A DNA stretch of 64,000 nt, from the NCBI RefSeq assembly GCF_028372415.1, contig NC_092875.1:57028919-57092918 (forward strand). Reading direction: 5' to 3'. Positions within the stretch are counted from its first letter, which is position 1; each line of letters opens with the position of its first letter. The stretch is from Notamacropus eugenii (lineage: Eukaryota > Chordata > Mammalia > Diprotodontia > Macropodidae). The notes below the pieces were generated by a model. That model saw only the letters and a list, made by a program, of their open reading frames with translations, was not told the DNA's origin and did not search any database. The translations under genes and the position numbers were made by a program. Shown in pieces: positions 712 to 63,617 of this stretch.

Positions 712-867
712 TGGGGTCACAGTCATCGATGTCCCTCTCACAAGCGGTTCCACTATAGCCTGGGTCACAGGTGCAACTGAAGCCCCCGTGAAAGTTGATG
801 CAAAAGCCGTGGGGGCCACAGGGCCTGGACCCCTCACACTCGTCGATATCCTGCTCACAGTGTGGGC
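712..867 (-). CDS. NOTCH3: NOTCH3 exon 16 (human numbering): EGF 21 and start of EGF 22
   Basis: 156 bases, same as human exon 16; phase 1 to 1. Reads [20 protein letters not shown], then [10 protein letters not shown] at the end. Acceptor GTCTCCAG, donor CCA/GTGAGT. In this gene its first four codons (GPHC) would supply the sixth cysteine of EGF 19 when joined directly to exon 14, since the EGF 20 exon is missing. Confidence 0.95.
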
Positions 868-3800
868 CTGGAGACAGAAAGGCACCCAGTAAGCTGCCTG
901 GATGGGGAGCAATGAGCTATCAGGGGCCAGTGGGGGAAGGGAAGCCAGAAAAGGCTTTGGGCGTGAATGGAGCCTGGGAAGTATCTGGGAGACAGAGGAA
1001 GATGAGAGGAACCTAGGAGATACAATGAGAGGAGCCCAGGGGCCAGCGGGCATGGGGGGATTGGCAAGGGCCTGGGGGAATGGGGGATGCCACAGGCCCA
1101 GTGAGGGTAGGAAGGACAAAGGGAGAAGGGGAGAGAGTCTCCATGAGGGCCCATGGGGCCCAGGAGAGTGAGGACAGTGGGGTTTAGAGACGGGGGTGTC
1201 AGGCACAGACCCTGCAGGCCCTCAGGGCAGGTGCAGCGGAAGCCATTGATGTAGTCGGTGCAGGTGCCTCCAGCCTGGCAGGGGTTAGACTCACACTGGT
1301 TGTGGTTCTGGTCACAAGTGGGCCCAGTCCAGCCCGGCTCACACTCACAGCGGTGCCTGGAAAGAGGGACAGGAGGGAGAGGCAGTGGTAGGAATGAAAA
1401 GGACCACCTAGAGGGGGAGCCTGGGAAATCCAGAAATGGAAGAGAAAAGGAGCTAGGGGATGGAGGTGGGGGAGGACTGGGGGGAGAGAAGAGAGGGAGG
1501 AACTGAGGTTGGGAGGGTAGGTAGAGCACAGTGTGGTGGAGGTGGGGGAAGAGAAGGGAGACTTACTGGGGGGAATAGCACAGGATCACAGAATTAGGGG
1601 CAGGAAGGACTTCAGAGAACATCAAATCCAATTTCCTTATTTTACAGATAAGGAAACTAAGAAAAGTAGGTGACTTATCCACAGTTACACAAGCTAGAAA
1701 GAATTAAGGGAGAAAAGAAGGGAAAGGGAAAACAACTAATGGAGGGGGCAGAGCTCACCCACTCAGGTCATCATGGCAGGTGCCATGGCTGCAGGGGTTA
1801 CTGGCACAGGGGTGGCGCTGAGCATGGCACAGAGGGGGCAAAAAGCCAGGTGGGCAGAGGCAGTGGAAGCCATTCTCCCCGTCCACACAGGAACCACCTT
1901 CCCCACAAGGGTTGGATGAGCACTCATTGATCTCCACGTTGCAGAGCGGCCCTAGAGGGAGAACAGGAACGGAACTTGTATCATCTCTGTGCCCCAAGCA
2001 GAGAAGTCTACATCCTAGACCTTCTCCTGCCCAAGTTCCAACCCTGTCAGCAGCACCCCCACCTGTGAAGCCTGGCTGGCAGATACAGTCATAACGGTTG
2101 ATCCCATCCTGGCAAACTCCATAGTCACAGGGGTTGCTGGCACAGTCATCATGGTTGACTTCACAATTCACCCCTGGACGCAGAGAAGAATTAACAGGCA
2201 GTTGAAACCTGCTGCCCCCTCCCCAGGCTCCCCTTTTAACATCCCTCCCCACCCCAAGCCCTCCTCCAAGGCATTCCCCACCCTTTCCCCAGCCTTCTGC
2301 AGAGTCCCACCTGAGGTGCCCGGGGGGCAATAACACAGGTACTTATTGACAAGGTCAAGACACTTGGCGCCATGTTGACAAGGCTGGCTGTGGCACTCGT
2401 CCAGCTGGCTTTCACAACGGCTGCCCGTGTACCCAGGGGCACAGGCACAGGAGAAGCTGGCGATGCCATCCACACAGCTCCCATGATGGCAGGGGTCCGG
2501 GGAGCAGTCATCCACATTATTCTCACACAGTGGACCCTCAAAGCCTGTCACAGGGCCAGGCAAGCAAGATCACCTCAGGAAAAAGAGAGGCCTTCACCTC
2601 CTCCCCGAGGGCCACTCTCCTTCTCAAACCCTATGACCAGACCCCATCAGAGGCCCGGGTCCGGCCCAACACTCACCCTCAAGCAAGATCACCTCAGGAA
2701 AAAGAGAGGTCTTCACCTCCTCCTCGAGGGCTGCTCTCCATCCCAAACCCTACAACCAGGCCCCCTCAGAGGCCTGGGTCTGGCCCAACACTCACCCTCA
2801 GCACAACGACACTCATATCCATCAGGCTGGTCCACACACTTGGCCCCGTTGTGGCACGGTGTGCTGGCACACTCATCTACATCCAGCTGGCACATCATAC
2901 CACTGAAGCCTGGACGAGGATCAGATGCATAGTCAGCAACCCAGGGTGATTCCCAACCTGCTCCTTCAAAGAGTCTCACCAGGGCATCCTCCAAACTATG
3001 TTCTTCTCCCACCATAGGCTCCTCACCTGAGGGGCAAGTGCAGCTGAAGCCATTCACTCGGTCATGACACTGTCCACCATTCACACAAGGGCTACTTTGG
3101 CACTCGTCGATATCCACCTCACAAAAGGTACCTGTGAATCCTGAGTCACACACCACCCCCCCCATGAGGTTTTGTGAGCCCACTGTCCTCCAGAATGGCC
3201 CCATCCTACCAATCCAACCTTGGCCTTTCCCTCCTTGAATCACTCATCCACCCATCCAGACCCCAAAAGGGAGGGCAGCACAGAGAAAACCCAGGTAAGG
3301 GATGGAAATACAGACACTGCTGCCCAGCTAGGCATGCACCAAGGAGCCCAGGGAGCTTCACCTGGTGAGGCGTATTGTTCATCTCTACCATAGTTCACAT
3401 TTCCAAAGTAGGTAAACTCTTACACTTGCCCCACCACTCCCTGGGCCCCCTGGGTCCAACCTTACAGTCCAAGTCTCAGTCTCATATCCTCTGAGCCCTC
3501 CTCCACCAACCCAGTCCTGGATCTGAACCCAGCTCCTACCTGCCATGCAGATGCAGGTAAACTGTCCGATTCTGTCAAGGCAGGTGGCCTGATTGTGACA
3601 GGGTCCAGAGAGGCACTCATTTATATCTGTCTCACATCGTGGGCCTGTGTACCCACGCCCACACTGGCACTGGAAGGAACCTTGTGTGTTGACACATTTC
3701 CCAAAGTGCTCACATGGGTTGGCACCTACAACGGTATAGACTGGTGAATACCAGCATGCATACAGCCACAGTCCCTCCTGATCTGTAGCCAGCCCAGCTC

Positions 3801-6800
3801 TGTTCTGTGGCCTTACCAATGGAGCATTCATCCACATCTTGGTCACAGGCCCCCCCTGTGAAACCTGGGGGACAAGTGCAGATGGCACGCCCATTCACAG
3901 GGTTAGTGTCACAGATGGCATCTTCATGACATGGATTACTGACACAGGCATCATCCAGGTGGCACAGGAGCCCTGTGAGTGGCAATCAGTGAGACTCAAG
4001 ATCCCTAGTGAGCTCACCCCAGAACCCTGTCAGAAGGGAAAGAGTGGGCACCTGACCAGGGCCACCACAGAGAGCCAGAAGAACTCAAGGAATAGGGACC
4101 CCAAGGAACAGCACCAGGAGAAAGGGAGCCTAGAGAGTCTCGAGGGTAGGACAAGGAGTGGGGAAAAGGAGCACCTATAGCTGAAGATGGAAGGAGCAGG
4201 ATGTGGCCTCACCAGTCTTGCCCATAGGACAGGCACAGTAGAAGGAAGCCACCCGATCATGACACGTGGCTCCGTGGAAGCAGACAGCTGTGGCACAGTC
4301 ATCGATGTTCTCACTACAGCTCTCGCCCGTCCAGCCATTGACACAGACACAGCTATGCCCTCCATGGGTATTGAAGCAGGTGCCCCCATTGTGACAGGCA
4401 TTTGGCTGCAGCTGGCATTCATCTACGTCTTCTGTGCAAAACTGACCTGAAGGGAGACAGGGAGGGCTGTAGGGCCAGATGAACACTGGGCTGCCCGGCA
4501 CCCTGCCCACCAGACCTATACCTAGCTAGAAGCTTTAGCATCTTGAGCAAGTAACATGAAGGATGCTTGGGCCAAATGGCATGAAATATTCTCTTGGAGA
4601 GGCCAGTGGGAGGATGAATGGTTTGGGAGAAAGTTCAACTACAATGGCGCCTGCCAGCTGCTACTTACTTCCATTTTCACTCATTATTCTTATGAGAGAG
4701 ATGCTGTTGTTTCAAATTGTTTCAGGGCTGCAAGTACTATCATCCCCCCTCTGCAATTCAGCACCCCAGGAACAAAGCCCAGGTTATTGCACCCTAGGTC
4801 CGGGTGTGTCACCCGCCCAGTTTTTATCTTTCCTCTTCCCTGCCCCTAAGCTGGGCCTAGTCCCAGGGCTCAAAGGAGAGCAGTGATGAAAGGACACAGG
4901 CCCCAAGCCCACCCCAGCTTTGGAGCATAGTTTAGGCCAATTCCCCACCTGTCCACTCTGGGGGGCACTGGCAGTTGTATGTGTTGACACCATCTACACA
5001 AGTAGCTCCATTCAGGCAGCGGTGCCTTGGACAGTCATCCACATTGACCTCACAGTCATGCCCTTCAAAGCCTGTCATAGCATAAGAAGGAGAAAGAAAA
5101 GAGAAATCTCATGGTCAACCTTGGCTGGGGGTAAGCGATTCTACCTCCTGGCCTGAAGAAATCACACATGGAAGTGTAATAGGAAGAGAGGTCTTGGCTC
5201 AGGCGACAATTGCTTCCTTCCTCACATAAGGCAGCTTCCTGCCCATTTCCTGATTCTAGCCCCACAGGAGGCCATGGCACGGAAGTCCAGGGGCCAGCAG
5301 CATTCATGTGAGCATGGTATCCTTCCCTCCCTTACCTCCCTTGGGAAGTTAGCAGCTCACCAGGCAGGCAGGCACAGTCATATGTGAACTCCCCAGTCTG
5401 GTGGCAGGTGCCCCCATTACGACACTGGGAGGGGGCACATGGGGCTGAAGGACTCTCACACAGAGGCCCAGCATAGCCTGCTGGGCATTGGCAGCGGAAA
5501 GAGCCAGGGACATTGATGCAAGTGCCCCCATGTTGGCACCCGGTGCCCACCCGGCACTCATCCACATCACTACGGCAGGTGCGGCCTTGGTAGCCAGGTG
5601 GACAGGTACAATTGTAACGATTGTGGTTGCTGGAGCAGCGGCCTCCATTGGCACAGGGGTTATTGGCACAAGGGTCATTTAGGGAACAGTCCTGTCCTGC
5701 AGGGAAAGGAAAGAGACAGAAATACAAGGTGGGCCCAGGCCCAGGGGATCCAGCCTGGATAGAATACAGTCTAAGACCAGGCTTCATCCCAGCTGCAGCC
5801 CCTTACCTCGGAATCCCCGGGGACAGATGCAGGAATACTGGACAGTGCCCTGAAGCAGGGAGCTCTTACACGTGCCCCCATTGGTACAAGGACCATGGTG
5901 GCATGGGTCTGCAAACTGGCACCGATCTCCCATCAGCCCTGGATGGCACCTGAAGGGCAGAGAAGCACCCAGGATGAGGGGGTACAAGGGCAGATGGCCT
6001 CCTCACCAGGCTCAGGCAGAGCCCCAAGCTCATCAGTATGGGAGTCTGGGAGGGAGGAAGCATGAAAGGGGAAGGGTGAGTGGAGAGGGGCTCTGTGATG
6101 CCAGTCCTGAAGTCTTTCTGTACTCCTACTGTCACTGGGAGGAAAGGCCCTCAGGGCCTTTGCTCTCACCACACACAAGCAACAAATGAACAATTCATCT
6201 AGAATTCTCTCCTGCTTTGACAAAGCACTTTCCTTCAAAGAGCCCCATGAGGCAGGCAACATGCATATCCAACCCTCCTCCCCATTTTACAGAAGAGGAA
6301 ACTGAGGCTTGGGGGTTGTTTCTTGCCTAAGATCACACTGATCAGATGATAGCTGGACGGCAAACCATCCAATCCAATCCAACACTTAGTAAGGATAACT
6401 AGGGGCCAAGGGAACAGAATTCACACCACCTCAGATCTCAAGGAATTTCAAGTTTATTGGGAAGATCCAAGTGAACGAGTTAAGTAAATACAAGATAACT
6501 GGAGGGGGAGGAAGCAGAGGGGGCCCTAAGTCTAGGGGAAAGGCTTGTCTTCTCACCCCCAAGGTCTCCTGGTGGGAAGTGAAGACAAGAGACACCCCGG
6601 GGCAGCAAGTCTCCCCATACAGAAAGGGAGCTGGGCTTTCTGCATACAGGAATCACGGAATATGTGTTTATTGAATCAGATTTGGGTGGAGGGCAGCAGA
6701 GGGGGCCCGAAGTCGGACAGTGATTACTGATGAGAAGCGGGCTAAGCCAAAGTCAGCCACTGGGAGAGGCACTCAGCCTGGACGGAAAGTAACTGAAAGC

Positions 6801-9800: not shown

Positions 9801-12800
9801 CTGGCCTCCCCTCCCCGCTCCGCTCCTTTATTCCAAGAAGAGGTTGGGGAAGTCAGCCTGGGAAGGATTAATTTAGCTACTCCCTAGGGCTCTTCCCTGA
9901 CTTCCTCTCTATCTCCTTCAAGTCCCCAAGCCCACAAACCTCCCAAGGATGGTGAAGCATCTTCTGGCCCCCAAATCATCCCCCCACCCTCACTCACAAA
10001 CAGGCAGCTTCCCCATTGGACAGCAGGGCACATCGGCCTCCATTCTCACAGGGACTCTCTCCGTCCAGGCACTGGGAGGCTGTGGGGAGAAGGGAAAAGG
10101 ATAGTCCATCAGTCTATTCTAAGAAAGGCACCAGAGGGAAACTGAAGGCAGAAAGAGATACATTCCTCTCCATACACAGACACACAGACACACACACACA
10201 CACACACACACACCCCTCCCAACTCCCAAATAGGAATGGCCCTGGGGCCCAGACATCCTGCCTTTCTCATCCATGCTCTTGGAACCCAGACTTTCCTAGG
10301 CTTGACTCCTATCCCCTACCCCCTTGAGCCAACAGCTGCAGGCTGAGGCTACTGGGAAGAAGGAGATTTGGGGGCATGGCAGAGGAAGCATCCCCCTCCC
10401 AAACTTAGGGAAGTTCCCACGGCCACTACCCCCTACCAGCTGTTTGGGCAGCCTAGGCACCATTGTGCTCTGCAGCTGTTGCTACCACCTGGGGCTCTGT
10501 GCCCCCCACTCTGGCTAAGCCTGGGGGCAGGGAGTGAGGTTGATCAGAGGAAACCTCTGGCAGGGGGAAGGGTATATAAAACCAGTGCCAGCCAGATGTG
10601 GGAGGCTCCCTGGGGCCACCTAAGCTGCAGGGGAAGAAAATATGGGATGGAGCAGCTAACTGAAGGCCAGGAGTTAAGTTCTAAGGGAGGAAGATGTCCA
10701 GAGTCAGGACACCTGAGGAGGGGTGGGGAGAGGATGCAAGGCTTGGGGAAAAGGGTGCCTCTGTCCTCTGGAGGGGAAGGATGAGAAATGTTTGTAGAAG
10801 ACTGAAAAGAGAAGAGACATTTGGTTTCCACTTGTTTATAGCATGACCACAAGACCTTTCTCCCAGAATTCCTGGTTACACCTGCATCACTCATCTCAAG
10901 CCAGCCAATCAGTCCTTTAATGACACCTCCAGTGTCTGTTATTATCATCTTCACTCCCATTTGTACACCTCTATCAGGTACCTTTCCCTACTCCATACAG
11001 TCCCATGTGGTAGATGGTGCCAGATTAGCCTTTCTTCTTAAGAGAAGTTATTCAAAGAGCTTACGTCACTTTCCCCTAGCCACACAGCTAGAGTGGCTGG
11101 TATTTGATTGCCCAATCAAGCACCATGCTGTAGGTTTTCTCAGCCAAGTGTGGACAGAGTAAGTGGACAGTGCCTAGGGTGGGCAGTGTTCTTATGGGGC
11201 ACTCTATATCTCGTAGCCCAGGGAGACAGGGCAATGATTGCTGCGTAAAGTGGGGAAAGCAGGAAAGCCCAGACTCAGTTTTGGACCAAGTTTCAGGACG
11301 AATTCTGCCACTAATTTACTGTGTATGACCTTGGGCAAATCAAATGACTTCCGCTGGCTTCAGTTTCTTCATCTGGAAAACGGATAAAATCCCACTTTTC
11401 TTTCTCATGCCACTTTTAAGTAGGATAAGAGTTGAATTTTCTCAGCCTTCAGGGAGTGGGGTTTTTTGTTCACTTCCTATGTGCCCCCTGCTCCAAAAGT
11501 GGAGTGGAGGAAGTTAAACGGGGTGGGGGGGAGGCATCTCAGAGCTTGGCACAGCCTTTCCCAGGCTACTGTGCCAGGAAGATGGGGCAGGGCTGTGCCC
11601 TGGAGAAAGGCTACAAAAAGTGGGGAGGGCAGAACCGAAGCCCAGGGATCAGCTCCATAGTCTCTCAAGTCCTACAAGTTCCCACAGAAGTGCCAGCCAG
11701 GGGTCGAGGCCCAATGCCCTGCCCATTGGGGTGGGCTGGCCCCAGCCCCCTGTATTCTCCAGCCCTTTGGTAACCCCCCTCCCCGCCGAGCCGCTAGTAA
11801 GACCCAGGATGGGCCGCCGCCCCCGCATCTGGGCTGCGGCCCCGCAGCTGCTGCGGACTCCCCTCGGCCCCCTCCCCTCGGGCCGGCCAGCCAGCCCGGA
11901 GTTGGGGAGGGGGTGCGTACATTCCGGCATTGTCTGCGAGAAGAAAGGGCCAGGACCGAGGCGAGCGAGCCGAGGGGGAGGGAGTGTCTAGACGGCGAAG
12001 CCATTGTCCCCGAAGGGGGGAGGGGGAGGGGGCAGAAGACCCCCGAGCTCCGAGCAGGGAGTTCTAGGGATTCCCCCACTCCTGGCCCTGCTCTCCCGCA
12101 CTCCCTCACCTCTGGAAGAGCACATGGGCAGCCCCGGACCCTGCCGCTTCCCAAATCCTTCCCACACCATGCAGGGCACGGGGGCGCGGGGGGAGGGTTC
12201 CCCGGGAAAGTGGGAGGGCCAGAGCCGGAGTCCGAGCAGGGGAGCGAGGAAGCGGCCCGGAGGGGGAGACCCGGGGAGACCCGCTCCGGGCTCCGGGCTC
12301 CGGCTCTTGCCGCGCTCAGGCCCTGGGAAGAACTTTGCTCTGAGTAAATAGAAAGTGGAGAACTTCTTCTCCCGCAGCCCGGACGACCCCCTCCCCCCGC
12401 GGCCGCCCCTCCCCCCGCGCCCCCAGACCAGCGAGCCCGCCGCCGCCGCCGGCGACCTGGGCCGGCCCGCATGAAGGGGCCCTTTGTGCCGGGGCCGCGG
12501 GGCCCCGCGGCCTCCCCCCGAGGAGGGGGAGGAGGAGGGGGCGCGGGGGAGAAGGGCTGGCGGCAGAGCCCGTTCCCAGGCTCCGGGACTGACCGCAGGG
12601 CAGCACAGGGCAGGGCAGGGGGCGGCGAGAAGAGGGGGACGCCCCCGTCGGCCCCCCAGCCCCACTCCCCTCCCTCTCCCCCCAGTACAGGAGGAGGGAG
12701 GGGGTGCGCTGGTCTGTCCCACAGGGCTCGCGATTTCCCCCCTCCGCGCTCGGCCGCAGCGCCCCCGCCCCCCCTCACCTGCAGCCGCAGCTCCCGAAGA

Positions 12801-12872
12801 AGCCAGCAGAGTAGTGCCCAGCAGGCAGATGCCCAGCAAGCGGACCGCCTGGCCCCGGCGCCCGGACCCCAT
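712..12872 (-). CDS. NOTCH3: NOTCH3 5' part: exons 1-14 and 16 (partial gene)
   Basis: Single-pass receptor that binds Delta/Jagged ligands on neighbouring cells and is cleaved to release a transcriptional co-activator; in mammals it acts mainly in vascular smooth muscle and pericytes. Fifteen exons read on the minus strand: signal peptide, then EGF-like repeats with six-cysteine spacing, many with the calcium-binding D-x-D-E-C or D-D-C start. Spliced coding length here is 2,422 bases (807 codons), ending inside EGF 22. Phases are consistent at every junction (1, 2, then 1 until exon 13 ends in 2, then 1 again). Stretches such as [20 protein letters not shown] match human NOTCH3 rather than NOTCH1, 2 or 4. 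The repeat pair corresponding to ligand-binding EGF 10-11 is present. Human exon 15 (EGF 20) is not found. The remaining EGFs, LNR, transmembrane and ankyrin parts lie off the left edge. Identity is very secure; exon borders are inferred from splice sites and family knowledge. Confidence 0.97.
868..1210 (-). other. NOTCH3: NOTCH3 intron between exons 14 and 16; exon 15 absent
   Basis: 343 bases in which human NOTCH3 would hold intron 14, the 114-base exon 15 and intron 15. All three minus-strand frames were read: there is no six-cysteine EGF pattern, no CTPNPCEHGG-like string and no repeat insertion. The interval is G-rich on the plus strand and looks like ordinary intron. Confidence 0.8.
1211..1356 (-). 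CDS. NOTCH3: NOTCH3 exon 14: end of EGF 18 and EGF 19
   Basis: 146 bases against 152 in human (two codons fewer, where human has CSQSLARDAC and this has CDQNHNQC); phase 2 to 1. Ends [10 protein letters not shown]. The donor reads CAGG/GTCTGT, a weak site with C at +3 where purine is the rule; no better GT lies close by. The next recognisable exon upstream in window coordinates corresponds to human exon 16, not 15. Confidence 0.92.
1357..1758 (-). other. NOTCH3: NOTCH3 intron 13 with a SINE
   Basis: 402 bases. Holds an old SINE-like repeat at about 1582-1700 and a purine-rich stretch (plus strand) at about 1365-1560. Confidence 0.75.
1582..1700. repeat. Old SINE/MIR-like repeat
   Basis: Carries the common CORE-SINE wording (bases near 1630: TTTACAGATAAGGAAACTAA) and a cacagttacacaagctag block typical of this class. 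Confidence 0.6.
1759..1951 (-). CDS. NOTCH3: NOTCH3 exon 13: EGF 17 and start of EGF 18
   Basis: 193 bases, same as human; phase 1 to 2. Reads [20 protein letters not shown], then [12 protein letters not shown], ending GTCHDDLSG. Acceptor CCCTCTAG, donor TGG/GTGAGC. Confidence 0.96.
2063..2173 (-). CDS. NOTCH3: NOTCH3 exon 12: end of EGF 15 and EGF 16
   Basis: 111 bases, same as human; phase 1 to 1. Reads [16 protein letters not shown] and ends CICQPGFTG. Acceptor GCGTCCAG, donor CAG/GTGGGG. Confidence 0.96.
2311..2544 (-). CDS. NOTCH3: NOTCH3 exon 11: EGF 14 and most of EGF 15
   Basis: 234 bases, same as human; phase 1 to 1. Reads [19 protein letters not shown], then [16 protein letters not shown], ending YCPPGTSG. 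Acceptor GTGACAG, donor CAG/GTGGGA. Confidence 0.97.
2561..2798. repeat. 119-bp tandem duplication across the exon 10 donor
   Basis: Two head-to-tail copies, 2561-2679 and 2680-2798, each starting CAAGCAAGATCACCTCAGG and each ending ACTCACCCT. They differ at about a dozen positions by eye, so roughly 90% identical. The right copy runs three bases into exon 10 and includes its splice donor; the left copy repeats that donor inside intron 10. Confidence 0.95.
2796..2909 (-). CDS. NOTCH3: NOTCH3 exon 10: end of EGF 12 and EGF 13
   Basis: 114 bases, same as human; phase 1 to 1. Reads [19 protein letters not shown] and ends ECRCAEG. Its donor (AGG/GTGAGT) lies in a 119-bp tandem duplication, so a second identical donor sits 119 bases downstream at 2677/2676. 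Using the second would add 119 bases and shift the frame, so the first is taken as the real border. Confidence 0.96.
3027..3140 (-). CDS. NOTCH3: NOTCH3 exon 9: end of EGF 11 and EGF 12
   Basis: 114 bases, same as human; phase 1 to 1. Reads [19 protein letters not shown] and ends FSCTCPSG. Acceptor GACTCAG, donor CAG/GTGAGG. Confidence 0.97.
3141..3539 (-). other. NOTCH3: NOTCH3 intron 8
   Basis: 399 bases; no repeat, exon or other feature recognised. Confidence 0.7.
3540..3725 (-). CDS. NOTCH3: NOTCH3 exon 8: EGF 10 and most of EGF 11
   Basis: 186 bases, same as human; phase 1 to 1. Codes [16 protein letters not shown], then [12 protein letters not shown] and QFTCICMAG. By homology EGF 10-11 correspond to NOTCH1 EGF 11-12, the core ligand-binding and calcium-binding pair. 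Donor CAG/GTAGGA. Confidence 0.97.
3817..3972 (-). CDS. NOTCH3: NOTCH3 exon 7: EGF 9 and start of EGF 10
   Basis: 156 bases, same as human; phase 1 to 1. Starts [19 protein letters not shown] and ends QDVDECSIG; nearly identical to human. Acceptor ACTCACAG, donor TTG/GTAAGG. Confidence 0.97.
4213..4446 (-). CDS. NOTCH3: NOTCH3 exon 6: EGF 7 and most of EGF 8
   Basis: 234 bases, same as human; phase 1 to 1. Reads [18 protein letters not shown], then the EGF 8 start [16 protein letters not shown], ending ACPMGKTG. Only a few residues differ from human. Donor CTG/GTGAGG. Confidence 0.97.
4447..4948 (-). other. NOTCH3: NOTCH3 intron 5
   Basis: 502 bases of unremarkable intron; no exon or known repeat recognised. 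Confidence 0.7.
4949..5071 (-). CDS. NOTCH3: NOTCH3 exon 5: end of EGF 5 and EGF 6
   Basis: 123 bases, same as human; phase 1 to 1. Reads [14 protein letters not shown] and on to CPPEWTG. Acceptor TATGACAG, donor ACAG/GTGGGG. It runs open over a short span only, so it is easily missed. Confidence 0.95.
5361..5696 (-). CDS. NOTCH3: NOTCH3 exon 4: EGF 3, 4 and most of EGF 5
   Basis: 336 bases against 339 in human; phase 1 to 1. Contains the SDVDECRVG start of calcium-binding EGF 4 and ends in YDCACLPG. In human this exon is the main CADASIL hot spot; here every EGF keeps six cysteines (one codon fewer, RVGTGC, lies between cysteine positions). Donor CTG/GTGAGC. Confidence 0.97.
5807..5949 (-). 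CDS. NOTCH3: NOTCH3 exon 3: end of EGF 1 and EGF 2
   Basis: 143 bases, exactly the human length; phase 2 to 1. Reads [16 protein letters not shown] then the second EGF, ending CPRGFRG. Acceptor CCCTTCAG, donor GAG/GTAAGG. Separated from exon 2 by a 4-kb intron. Confidence 0.96.
6220..6360 (-). repeat. SINE fragment (CORE-SINE type)
   Basis: Antisense arrangement: gcactttcc block, then CCCATTTTACAGAAGAGGAA and a decayed right part. Confidence 0.55.
7330..7470 (-). repeat. SINE fragment (CORE-SINE type)
   Basis: Antisense CCCATTTTACAGATGAGTAC followed by a decayed cacactgcaaattcaaattcaaa tail. Confidence 0.55.
7594..7761. mobile_element. Palindromic hAT-like MITE
   Basis: 168 bp whose ends are perfect inverted repeats (CAGGGGTGGGGAACC and its complement) and whose arms pair along most of their length around GTGGCCCTCTAGGTCCT. 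No coding capacity. The long palindrome and terminal CAGGGGT fit non-autonomous hAT elements of mammals. No clear 8-bp target duplication is seen. A related half-copy lies at 20352-20472. Confidence 0.75.
8741..8910 (+). repeat. SINE fragment
   Basis: GACCTGAGTTCAAATC box, aagtcatttga and CTCATCTGTAAAATGG in sense order. Confidence 0.65.
8920..9045 (+). repeat. L2 LINE 3' end
   Basis: Typical order gaatgtgagctcctgtgag, then tagcaaactgcctggcacatagtaggcactt, as in L2 3' ends. Confidence 0.6.
9600..9770 (+). repeat. SINE, tRNA-headed marsupial type
   Basis: gggttcaaatgctgg B-box region, then cttgggcc, ttcttcatc and the tail gtctctaaagtcccttccaac. Confidence 0.65.
9998..10079 (-). CDS. NOTCH3: NOTCH3 exon 2: N-terminal half of EGF 1
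   Basis: 82 bases, phase 1 to 2, acceptor CCCCACAG, donor TTT/GTGAGT. Translates as [17 protein letters not shown] followed by [10 protein letters not shown], aligned with human [14 protein letters not shown]. It is one codon longer than human (79 bases). Too short and too oddly phased to be caught as an open reading frame. Confidence 0.93.
10170..10213. repeat. (CA)n microsatellite
   Basis: Almost pure CA run. Confidence 0.95.
11270..11420 (+). repeat. SINE fragment
   Basis: Contains gaccttgggcaaatcaaatgac and CAGTTTCTTCATCTGGAAAA, the right half of a tRNA-type SINE. Confidence 0.6.
12779..12872 (-). CDS. NOTCH3: NOTCH3 exon 1: start codon and signal peptide
   Basis: Codes 31 residues plus one base. 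The ATG has A at -3 and G at +4. The peptide has a basic start ([11 protein letters not shown]), a hydrophobic core ([13 protein letters not shown]) and an Ala-rich end, a typical cleavable secretion signal. The donor reads CAG/GTGAGG. It is eight codons shorter than the human exon 1, which has long Arg and Pro runs; this part is poorly conserved. No in-frame ATG lies upstream before the GC-box region. Confidence 0.9.
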
Positions 12873-43629: not shown

Positions 43630-46300
43630 AAAAAAAAAATACAATGAGATGGATGAGTATTTTAAAAAATACAAATTGCCCAGATTAACAGAAGAGGAAG
43701 TTGAATACTTAAAACAACTCCATCTCAGAAAAAGAAATTGAACAAGCCATCAATGAACTCCTTAGGAAAAAATCTCCAGGGCCAGATGGATTTACAAGTG
43801 AATTCTATCAAACATTTAAAAAACAGTTAATTCCAATACTACATAGACTATTTTTGAAAATTGGAGAAGTCCTCTCAAATTCTTTTTATAATACAAATAT
43901 GGTTTTGATACCTAAACCAGGAAGAGACAAAACAGAGAAAGAAAATTATAGACAAATTTCTCTAATGAATACAGATGCAAAAATTTTAAATAAGATTTTG
44001 GCAAAACGAATATAGCAACTTATCACAAGAATACTACATTATGATCAGGTAGGAATGCAGGGCTGGTTCAATATTAGGAAAACTATTAGCATTATCAACC
44101 ACATCAACAACAAAACTAACAGAAATCACATGACTATCTCAATAGACACAGAAAAAGCTTTTGACAAAATACAACACCCATTCCTATTAAAAACATTGGA
44201 GAGCATGGGAATAAAGGGAACTTTCCACAAAATAATAAGCAGTATTTACCTAAAACCTTTTGCAAGCATTATATGCAATGGTGATAAGCTAGATGCATTT
44301 CCAATAAGATCAGGGGTGAAACAAGGATGTCCATTATCACCACTATTATTCAATATGGTACTAGAAATGTTAACTATAACAACTGGACAAGATAAATAAA
44401 TTGAAAGAATTAGAATAGGCAAAGAAGAAACTAAGTTATCATCTTTGCAGATGATACGATCATATACTTAGAAAATCCCAGAGATTCAAGTAAAAAACTA
44501 CTTGAAACAATAAACAACTTTGGTAAAGTTGCAGGTTACAAAATAAACCCACACAAATCTTCTGCATTTCTATATATTAGGAACAAGACCCAACAGCAAA
44601 AGATAGAAAAAGAAATCCCATTTAAAGCTAGGGTAGACACTATAAAATATTTGGGAGTTTACCTGCCAAAACAAACCCAGGGACTATGTGAACACAACTA
44701 CAAGACACTTTTCACACAAATAAAGTCACATCTAAGTAAGTGGAAAAATATCAGTTGCTCATGGGTAGGCTGAGCCAATATAATAAAAATGACAATTCTA
44801 TCTAAATTAATTTACTTATTTAGTGCCATACCAATTAAACTATCAGATAATTATTTTCTAGAGCTGGAAAAAATAGTATCAAAATTCACCTGGATGAACA
44901 AAAGGTCCAGAATATGAAGGGGACTAATGAAAAGAAATGCTAGAGAAAGTGGCCCAGCACTACCAGATCTCAAATTGTATTATAAAGCAGCAATTATCAA
45001 AACCACTTGGTACTGGCTAAGAAACAGAAGAGTAGACAAGTGGAATATGCTAGGTACTCAAGACACAGTAGACAATAAATATAGCAATCTACTGTTTGAT
45101 AAGCCCAAGGACCCCAGCTTCTGGGATAAGAACTCACTGTTCAACAAAAATTGCTGGGAAAACTGGATAAAAGTGTGGTGGAAACTAGGCATAGACCAAT
45201 GCCTGACACCGTACACAAGAATAAAATCCAAATGGGTACACGATCTAGGTATAAAGATGTATGCTATGGACAAATTGGCGAGGAATAGTGTATTTATCAG
45301 ATTTATGGAGAAGGGAAGAATTTTTGACTGAAGAAGAGATAGAAAGCATTATGAAGTGCAAGATGGATAATTTTAATTACGTTAAACTGAAAAGTTTTTG
45401 CTCAACCAAATCCAATGCAACCAAAATTTGGAGGGATGTAGAAAACTGGGAATTTTTACAGCTAATCTTGGGGATAAAGGCCTCATTTCTAGAATATATA
45501 GAGAACCGAGTCAAATGTGCAAAAATACAAGTCATTCCCCAATTGATAAGTGGTCAAAGGATATGAACAGGCAATTTTCAGAGGAAGAAATTAAAGATAT
45601 CTATAGTCATATGAAAAAATGCTCTAAATCACTTTTGATTAGAGAGATGTAAATCAAAACAACTCTGAGGTACCACATCACACCTATCAGACTGGCAAAC
45701 ATGACAGAACAGGAAGATGATAAGTGTTGGAGAGGATGTGGGAGAGTTGGAACACTAATACATTGTAGGTGGAACTGTGAGCTGATCTAACCATTCTAGA
45801 GAGCAATTTGGAACTATGCCCAAAGGGCTACAAAAATATGCATACCCTTTGACCCAGCAATATCGCTTCTTGGACTGTATCCCCAAGAGATCATAAAAAT
45901 GGGAAAGGGTCCCACATGTACACAAATATTTATAGCAGCACTCTTTGTGGTGGCCAAAAACTGGAAATCAAGGGGATGCCCATTAATTGGGGAATGGCTG
46001 AATAAATTATGGTATATGAATGTAATGGAATACTATTGTGCTATAAGAAATGATGAACAGGAAGACTTCAGAGAGGCCTGGAAAGACTTATGTGATCTGA
46101 TGCTGAGTGAACCAGGAGAACCAGGAGAACTTTGTGCATAGCAACGACCACAGTGTGCGAGAGTTTTTTTTGGTAGACTTGAAACTTCATTGCAATGCAA
46201 GTACTTAAAAAAAAAAAAATCCCAATGAACTTCTAAGGCAAAATGCCTTCCACATCCAGAGAAAGAACTACGTAATTCAATCACAGATTATAGCAGATCA

Positions 46301-62723: not shown

Positions 62724-63617
62724 CTGTAAGGCAAAGGGATGTATGACATTCATTAGGGTCAATGGCTTCCTCAATCCCTTCTTGGTCCTAAATGTGGCTC
62801 TGTCCCTTCTTCTACTCTTTCAAATTTCCCCCTCACTCCATTCTCTTTAAAATCATTCCATCATTCTTCCTACAATCAATCTCTCCTTTTTCTAGTTGCC
62901 CCTACTCCTCAAAGACATCACCTGAAAAGATGGCGGTAGTAGTTGAGGGGACCAACGAGGCCATGGTTCTGGGTGAAGCTGAACAGGAAGGCTTCTAGCT
63001 CATCATTTGTAAGGCCATGGATTCCAGTCATAGGATGGGTGAAGGTGCTCTTCAGGATCTGCACACATGCATCCCTCTTCATTACAAATACCCTCCAGAC
63101 ACCTCTGAGAATCAGTCTTCCCATCTCAGTACATCCTCTCTCTCCCCACTTCCACAACATCATTACTCTCCCTCTCCCACAACTCCCCACTAGCTTTTGC
63201 CCCCTTCCACTAATCAGAAAGAGATGGGACCTGAAAGTCAGAGGCAGAAAGCAGCTTCTCAGGCAACCAGGATAGCTGAAACAGGAACACATAACTGGAG
63301 CGAAAAAGCTGGCTGGGATGGTGCAGGGCATACTCTGGGAAGGGGAAAAAGAAAAAGTAAGGGAACCACCCATATCAAAGCCCTTGTAGGGGGTAACATC
63401 CCAGTCTCAGAACTCAGTACCCCTTCCCTACCTGTTAAGACTGGCCAATCCACCATTCCTCTAAATGACCTCCCATCTTAGCACCTACCTTGGTAAACAA
63501 ACATAGGGGGGGCGCTCACCACCACCATCCGCTCTACCAAACTCGGGTAGTAGACAGAGAAATTCCAGGCCAAGATTCCACCCCAGTCGTGAGCCACCAG
63601 GACACATTTGGAGTAAC
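62492..63617 (-). CDS. EPHX3: EPHX3 3' part: last four coding exons
   Basis: Epoxide hydrolase 3 (ABHD9), an alpha/beta-hydrolase of the endoplasmic reticulum that opens fatty-acid epoxides, including those used in skin-barrier lipids. Exons at 63489-63617, 63231-63334, 62922-63058 and 62492-62723 join in consistent phase (1, 1, 0, 2). The nucleophile Asp is in CVLVAHDWGG (codon at about 63586-63588), the acid Asp in LLLWGEKDPYLE, the catalytic His in AGHWIPQ, and a lid tyrosine pair in PLNYYRHLF. Text matches human EPHX3 closely (FPLEHQELTTPTLLLWGEKD versus FPLEPQELTTPTLLLWGEKD). The membrane anchor and oxyanion-hole exons (HGFP) lie beyond the right edge. All catalytic residues visible are intact, so the gene looks functional. 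Confidence 0.96.
62922..63058 (-). CDS. EPHX3: EPHX3 lid-domain exon 2
   Basis: 137 bases, phase 0 to 2. Reads ILKSTFTHPMTGIHGLTNDE, then LEAFLFSFTQNHGLVGPLNY and YRHLF. The tyrosines in LNYYR include one that in this family helps activate the epoxide oxygen. Donor CAG/GTGATG. Confidence 0.95.
63231..63334 (-). CDS. EPHX3: EPHX3 lid-domain exon 1
   Basis: 104 bases, phase 1 to 0. Reads EYALHHPSQLFRSSYVFLF, then QLSWLPEKLLSASDFQ; human has DYSLHHISQFFRSHYMFLFQ. Acceptor CTTCCCAG. The donor is CAG/GTCCCA, a GT site with poor +3 to +6 bases. Confidence 0.92.
63489..63617 (-). CDS. EPHX3: EPHX3 exon with the nucleophile elbow
   Basis: 129 bases, phase 1 to 1. Reads GYSKCVLVAHDWGG, then LAWNFSVYYPSLVERMVVVS and PPMFVYQ. 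Acceptor ATTGACAG, donor CAAG/GTAGGT. Confidence 0.95.

Follow-up and report, generated by a model that had tools for sequence, protein, structure and literature searches.

The minus strand of the window, by which we mean the whole 64,000-nt stretch of Notamacropus eugenii DNA that was analysed (C14:57028919-57092918, on a contig of 478 Mb), carries the 5′ half of the stroke-related receptor gene NOTCH3; the part that falls here begins with the signal peptide and extends into the start of EGF 22. Its features are as follows:

12779..12872, minus strand: coding part of NOTCH3 exon 1; signal peptide, ATG at 12872; read by eye
9998..10079, minus strand: NOTCH3 exon 2; 82 bases, first part of EGF 1; borders set by eye
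5807..5949, minus strand: NOTCH3 exon 3; set by hand, checked by script
5361..5696, minus strand: NOTCH3 exon 4; set by hand, checked by script
4949..5071, minus strand: NOTCH3 exon 5; set by hand, checked by script
4213..4446, minus strand: NOTCH3 exon 6; set by hand, checked by script
3817..3972, minus strand: NOTCH3 exon 7; set by hand, checked by script
3540..3725, minus strand: NOTCH3 exon 8; set by hand, checked by script
3027..3140, minus strand: NOTCH3 exon 9; set by hand, checked by script
2796..2909, minus strand: NOTCH3 exon 10; set by hand, checked by script
2311..2544, minus strand: NOTCH3 exon 11; set by hand, checked by script
2063..2173, minus strand: NOTCH3 exon 12; set by hand, checked by script
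1759..1951, minus strand: NOTCH3 exon 13; end of EGF 16, EGF 17, most of EGF 18
1211..1356, minus strand: NOTCH3 exon 14; 146 bases, rest of EGF 18, most of EGF 19, ending CPEGLQG
1205..1213, minus strand: exon 14 splice donor; AGG/GTCTGT, 3.06 bits
868..1210, minus strand: intron-like interval at the place expected for exon 15; 343 bases, GT...AG, no exon 15 and no detectable relic
712..867, minus strand: NOTCH3 exon 16; 156 bases, end of EGF 19, EGF 21, start of EGF 22

The human and mouse NOTCH3 letters used for comparison, and the human exon borders, are background rather than database records. Spliced together, exons 3-14 and 16 encode 748 residues in one uninterrupted frame (verified by script), and 612 of these are identical to human NOTCH3 (82% over exons 3-16, in an alignment against the background letters). 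The only gaps in that alignment are of 1, 2 and 38 residues, and the 38-residue gap matches the size of human exon 15, that is, of EGF 20, one EGF repeat. When a single pattern is used to count EGF modules in the protein of exons 3-16, the human sequence has 20 and that of the window has 19. EGF 19 and EGF 20 have similar ends, along which the aligner can move the 38-residue gap; the missing repeat is assigned as EGF 20 because the EGF 19 of the window scores 123 with human EGF 19 and 87 with human EGF 20. Exon order, phases and EGF order are the same in wallaby NOTCH3 as in human and mouse NOTCH3, the difference being exon 15/EGF 20, which is found in human NOTCH3 and not in that of the wallaby.

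The initial annotation had placed 343 bases, at 868..1210, between exons 14 and 16, and these coordinates are exact. The interval is C/T-rich on the minus strand and ends in a normal-looking, unscored acceptor, CTTTCTGTCTCCAG. Both junctions flanking it are phase 1, as had been proposed from the letters. Aligned within the interval, the human exon 15 peptide scores 34, with a mean of 33.3 for 300 dinucleotide shuffles and 128 of the 300 as high or higher; the mouse peptide scores 30, with a shuffle mean of 31.5 and 178 of 300 as high or higher. As positive controls, the human exon 14 and exon 16 peptides score 182 and 223 at their own places, and the maxima in 100 shuffles each are 44 and 43. 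With the controls this strong and the exon 15 scores at shuffle level, exon 15 is thus not concealed in the interval in a moderately diverged form. A relic of exon 15 in the interval is rejected, nothing there rising above the shuffles; neutral decay could wipe out a relic, so its absence gives no date for the loss. Direct repeats of at least 8 bases, sought between 1260-1190 and 1189-850 as a deletion footprint, amount to only one 8-mer.

The rest of the gene lies in the downstream DNA (segments L012-L014). There, 13 matches to human NOTCH3 pass a 55% identity filter, with identities of 60-97%, and they follow the human order, beginning with exon 17 and ending with the ankyrin exons, the NRR and transmembrane exons included. 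From EGF 22 into EGF 33, 22 of 22 overlapping 40-residue fragments are matched, 21 of them collinearly; fragment f240 has its best score on a neighbouring repeat, and open frames to both sides span the place where it belongs. The last two repeats, EGF 33 and EGF 34, are read in an open frame at L012:6020-5442 and in a downstream match, and EGF 1 was traced by eye over exons 2 and 3. Wallaby NOTCH3 as a whole comprises EGF 1-19 and 21-34, or 33 repeats rather than the 34 of human NOTCH3 (as given in passages of PMC9421602); the earlier count of 33 is thereby upheld, counterparts of EGF 22-34 having been found downstream. The match to NOTCH3 is collinear and of high identity over the ectodomain, NRR and intracellular exons, as expected of an orthologue; a set of 34 repeats with EGF 20 is not present, and repeat count does not define orthology. 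Directly before exon 17 (L012 8531-8775) there is a long GT/AC simple repeat, which reads as a poly-CV frame.

Joining exon 14 to exon 16 yields a 32-residue EGF 19 with six cysteines in regular spacing, followed by EQDIDEC. The suggestion that EGF 19 is finished by the GPHC codons of exon 16 is borne out by this regular repeat, and the combination of an in-phase junction with restored six-cysteine spacing is that of an in-frame EGF exon skip. We consider it probable that exon 15 was deleted from the genome in this lineage and that exon 14 is now spliced to exon 16, giving a receptor of 33 EGF repeats.

The splice donor of exon 14 bears directly on this reading. Scored on a frequency matrix, it reaches 3.06 bits, the lowest of the 14 NOTCH3 donors scored (exons 2-14 and 16); the 13 others range from 5.39 to 11.23, with 5.39 for exon 2 and 6.87-11.23 for exons 3-13 and 16. 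Of all 3159 minus-strand GTs in the window, 19.7% equal or exceed this score. The donor has C at +3, and no other in-phase GT of the interval scores above zero. None of the 10 other GTs of the interval, from 1206 to 875, is a stronger donor, all scoring 1.22 bits or less (in a scan of GT donors that reached back into exon 14 as far as 1237). As to the earlier proposal that the flanking exons join in frame, the phases agree with it; because the donor is the weakest of the 14 and is equalled or exceeded by 19.7% of GTs, the splice itself, and with it a messenger carrying the in-frame 14-16 join, is something that we infer. This weak site may predate the deletion or may lie at its breakpoint, and it may tune the amount of full-length receptor. 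Elsewhere in the gene, a 119-base tandem duplication in intron 10 (2561-2800; 101 of 123 compared bases identical) takes in the exon 10 donor, so that the GTGAGT donor is repeated 119 bases further downstream, and splicing from this copy would change the reading frame.

One alternative is that the donor was damaged along with the loss of exon 15. Many transcripts would then keep the interval, ending in decay or in a truncated, secreted ectodomain made beside the 33-EGF receptor, or NOTCH3 would be weak. The score of 3.06 bits, with all 10 other GTs of the interval at or below 1.22 bits, speaks for this, as does the frame in line with exon 14, which is open across the full interval and meets a stop four codons into exon 16: failure of the donor would lead to read-through of this frame to that stop, with decay of the message or truncation of the ectodomain. 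However, the gene is conserved both upstream (612/748) and downstream (60-97% in the 13 filtered matches), which is not a picture of decay, and weak splice sites that have G at both −1 and +5 are used in other genes. On balance we regard damage to the donor as unlikely.

Exon 15 is absent from the assembly. Besides the 38-residue gap and the shuffle-level peptide scores, this is supported by searches of the animal's own genome (3.445 Gb, 254 contigs), which bear out the absence of EGF 20 reported in the initial annotation. With the human exon 15 peptide as query, 78 matches reach E≤10 (best 96 candidates scored), none of them in the interval 1210-868. Seven of the 78 fall in NOTCH3, where their coordinates place all of them on EGF exons other than exon 15 (exons 3, 4 and 7 within the window and four in downstream segment L012). 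The best match, at C1:489577125 (E 0.0014), is the EGF22 exon of NOTCH1, which reads GATCEEVLAPCAKDPCKNGGECKESEDYESFSCMCPTGWQG, and the second, at C2:299975350 (E 0.002), is the EGF22 exon (41 residues) of a gene that we take to be NOTCH2. Both are complete single EGFs ending GWQG; as matches they are weak in absolute E-value, and a third, at C1:414482164 (E 0.0024), a place without a Notch label, is close behind. The C1 locus is identified as NOTCH1 by its EGF20 and EGF21 exons, which match PDB 9b3n at 100% and 95%, and NOTCH3 is a distinct gene beside the separate NOTCH1 (C1) and putative NOTCH2 (C2) genes. The paralogue matches serve as a built-in positive control: the paralogous exons were found, though they are far more distant than an orthologous exon 15 would be. 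A move of exon 15 to another part of the gene or genome was considered and rejected, the exon being absent from the 78 matches (96 candidates scored). No relatives were found in viral contigs.

That the species normally has exon 15, and that the assembly dropped a few hundred bases or represents a polymorphic structural variant, seems to us quite improbable. In its favour, the low-scoring donor could be the trace of a breakpoint where exon 14 ends. Clean phase is no argument against such an error, since exon 15 is symmetric and any loss inside introns 14 and 15 keeps the frame. Against it, an assembly gap, named in the initial annotation as what could overturn the loss, was looked for, and neither the window nor L012-L014, on a contig of 478 Mb, contains an N; the interval has a single match in the genome, itself; and no stray NOTCH3 exon 15 occurs among the 78 matches (best 96 candidates scored, not every row translated). 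A 1,050-base query over exons 12-14 also has one full-length place in the genome; besides it, 39 matches are listed (40 of 138 candidates scored), one at the NOTCH1 locus and the remaining 38 all on a single stretch of intron 13. This stretch, 1571-1716, has 72-93% identity to the 38 other listed genome places and is a dispersed repeat, presumably a MAR1-like SINE (by eye); of two scans with MAR1-like pieces, one found no match and the other a single weak one.

The ancestry of EGF 20 was examined by comparing single repeats with Notch1, whose letters were taken from PDB 9b3n. Human EGF 20 scores 109 with Notch1 EGF22 and 49-85 with EGF20, EGF21, EGF23 and EGF24. Of the window repeats, EGF 19 is best with Notch1 EGF20 (135), and EGF 21, which scores 159 with human EGF 21, is best among the Notch1 repeats with EGF23 (99). 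Human EGF 19 and EGF 21 alone separate the Notch1 repeats poorly (93 vs 91 and 82 vs 81), so the register rests on human EGF 20, the two window repeats and their order. In line with these scores, we assume that the counterpart of Notch1 EGF21 is already missing from human NOTCH3. Wallaby NOTCH3 differs from NOTCH1 and NOTCH2 (36 EGF repeats), which in the same genome keep EGF21 and EGF22 as separate exons; it has neither, and its EGF 19 and EGF 21 score best with Notch1 EGF20 and EGF23.

A zebrafish notch3 reverse primer described as 'from exon 15' is printed in a passage of PMC3759344. In one of its three frames, chosen by us, this primer encodes ELLTPCS, which is identical in 5 of 7 residues to ELLSPCT of human exon 15. 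The homology to Notch1 EGF22, together with the zebrafish primer, indicates that exon 15 is ancestral and that its absence here is a loss; these comparisons show loss rather than gain, to the extent that the background sequences hold. A gain of exon 15 in the human lineage, the exon never having been present here, is highly improbable: no evidence for it was found, there are counterpart exons in NOTCH1 and NOTCH2 of the same genome, a counterpart repeat in solved Notch1 (PDB 9b3n) and a zebrafish notch3 exon 15 (the primer in PMC3759344), and it is refuted unless the 5/7 zebrafish match and the paralogue homology are both coincidence.

Deletion of exon 15 is the explanation that we favour: a single module was most likely lost in this lineage, in effect a natural exon skip. 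The deletion would have taken out exon 15, a symmetric (phase 1-1), single-repeat exon, and exon 14 would be spliced directly to exon 16 through the weak donor. EGF 19, completed by exon 16, would then adjoin the calcium-binding EGF 21, with the counterparts of Notch1 EGF21 and EGF22 both missing between them. Since exon 15 is one whole six-cysteine module, the ectodomain would still be disulphide-balanced; it would be one repeat shorter between the ligand-binding and regulatory regions, and the protein would presumably work and the allele be fixed. The further proposition, that EGF 20 is permanently lost in a marsupial lineage and that a working 33-repeat receptor has the calcium-binding EGF 19 docked directly onto EGF 21, could in our view equally well prove right or wrong.

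With the calcium consensus given in a passage of PMC12979247, EGF 19 of the window carries the calcium-binding motif and human EGF 19 does not. Human EGF 20 and Notch1 EGF22 also lack this motif, and neither has an O-fucose, O-glucose or O-GlcNAc motif. Passages of PMC12979247 describe human Notch1 as mainly a rigid rod, in which EGF22 has no calcium site, a rigid backbone and a near-linear joint with EGF21. Because the lost repeat is a non-calcium one, the rod would be one repeat shorter and a non-calcium joint would be replaced by a direct joint onto a calcium-binding repeat. This effect of losing EGF 20 is a prediction from sequence. The residue that follows CPEG is L in the window, where human EGF 20 has W ahead of EGF 21, so the EGF 19-21 joint would be expected to be softer. 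Wallaby NOTCH3 would be a clean test of repeat spacing and of calcium-stiffened joints between the ligand-binding and regulatory regions, because the two repeats that lie between EGF20 and EGF23 in Notch1 are both missing here.

To our knowledge, the number of EGF repeats is usually treated as fixed within each vertebrate Notch paralogue. In the initial annotation, the loss of a mid-region EGF had been set against the constraint seen in CADASIL. The loss itself is real, and the contrast is weaker than was thought, removal of a whole six-cysteine repeat keeping the cysteines paired. The mutations that cause CADASIL typically add or remove one cysteine, so that the affected repeat is left with an odd number of them (passages of PMC3759344 and PMC9421602). 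Skipping of whole exons with paired cysteines has been proposed as a therapy, in which EGF exons are removed in frame, the cysteines stay paired and the flanking exons form a fused EGF; for the exons tested, ligand co-localisation and reporter activity were kept in cells (passages of PMC8128844). In the same passages, natural skipping of exon 9 in one family is associated with a mild phenotype, and ligand-dependent signalling was impaired in transfected cells (PMC8128844). The wallaby case differs in that the exon is exon 15, it is gone from the genome itself and there is no mutation to bypass. Because it otherwise resembles exon skipping, this evolutionary case is less paradoxical than first thought and more useful. 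A shortened mammalian NOTCH3 would help to judge if EGF exons that lie outside the ligand-binding region are safe to remove, as the ideas on CADASIL exon skipping assume, and if the loss is as we propose it would be a natural long-term experiment in which a whole EGF exon of a disease gene is dispensable. Among the matches listed in the open-access literature, no marsupial NOTCH3 without an EGF repeat was recognised from a title or the start of an abstract, which is not proof that none has been printed.

Other parts of the window were also inspected. As a check of synteny, the BRD4 bromodomains were sought upstream, and no match was better than E 1.1. An open frame at 62918-63406, ending TGIHGLTNDELEAFLFSFTQNHGLVGPLNYYRHLFR, is a candidate exon of EPHX3, which we take to be a neighbour of NOTCH3 in human; searches of Pfam and PDB with 62918-63406 did not confirm the identity. 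The segments 44016-44399 and 44918-45331 are LINE-1-like, with an RVT_1 fragment (Pfam, E 9e-19) and a further L1-like open frame read by eye.
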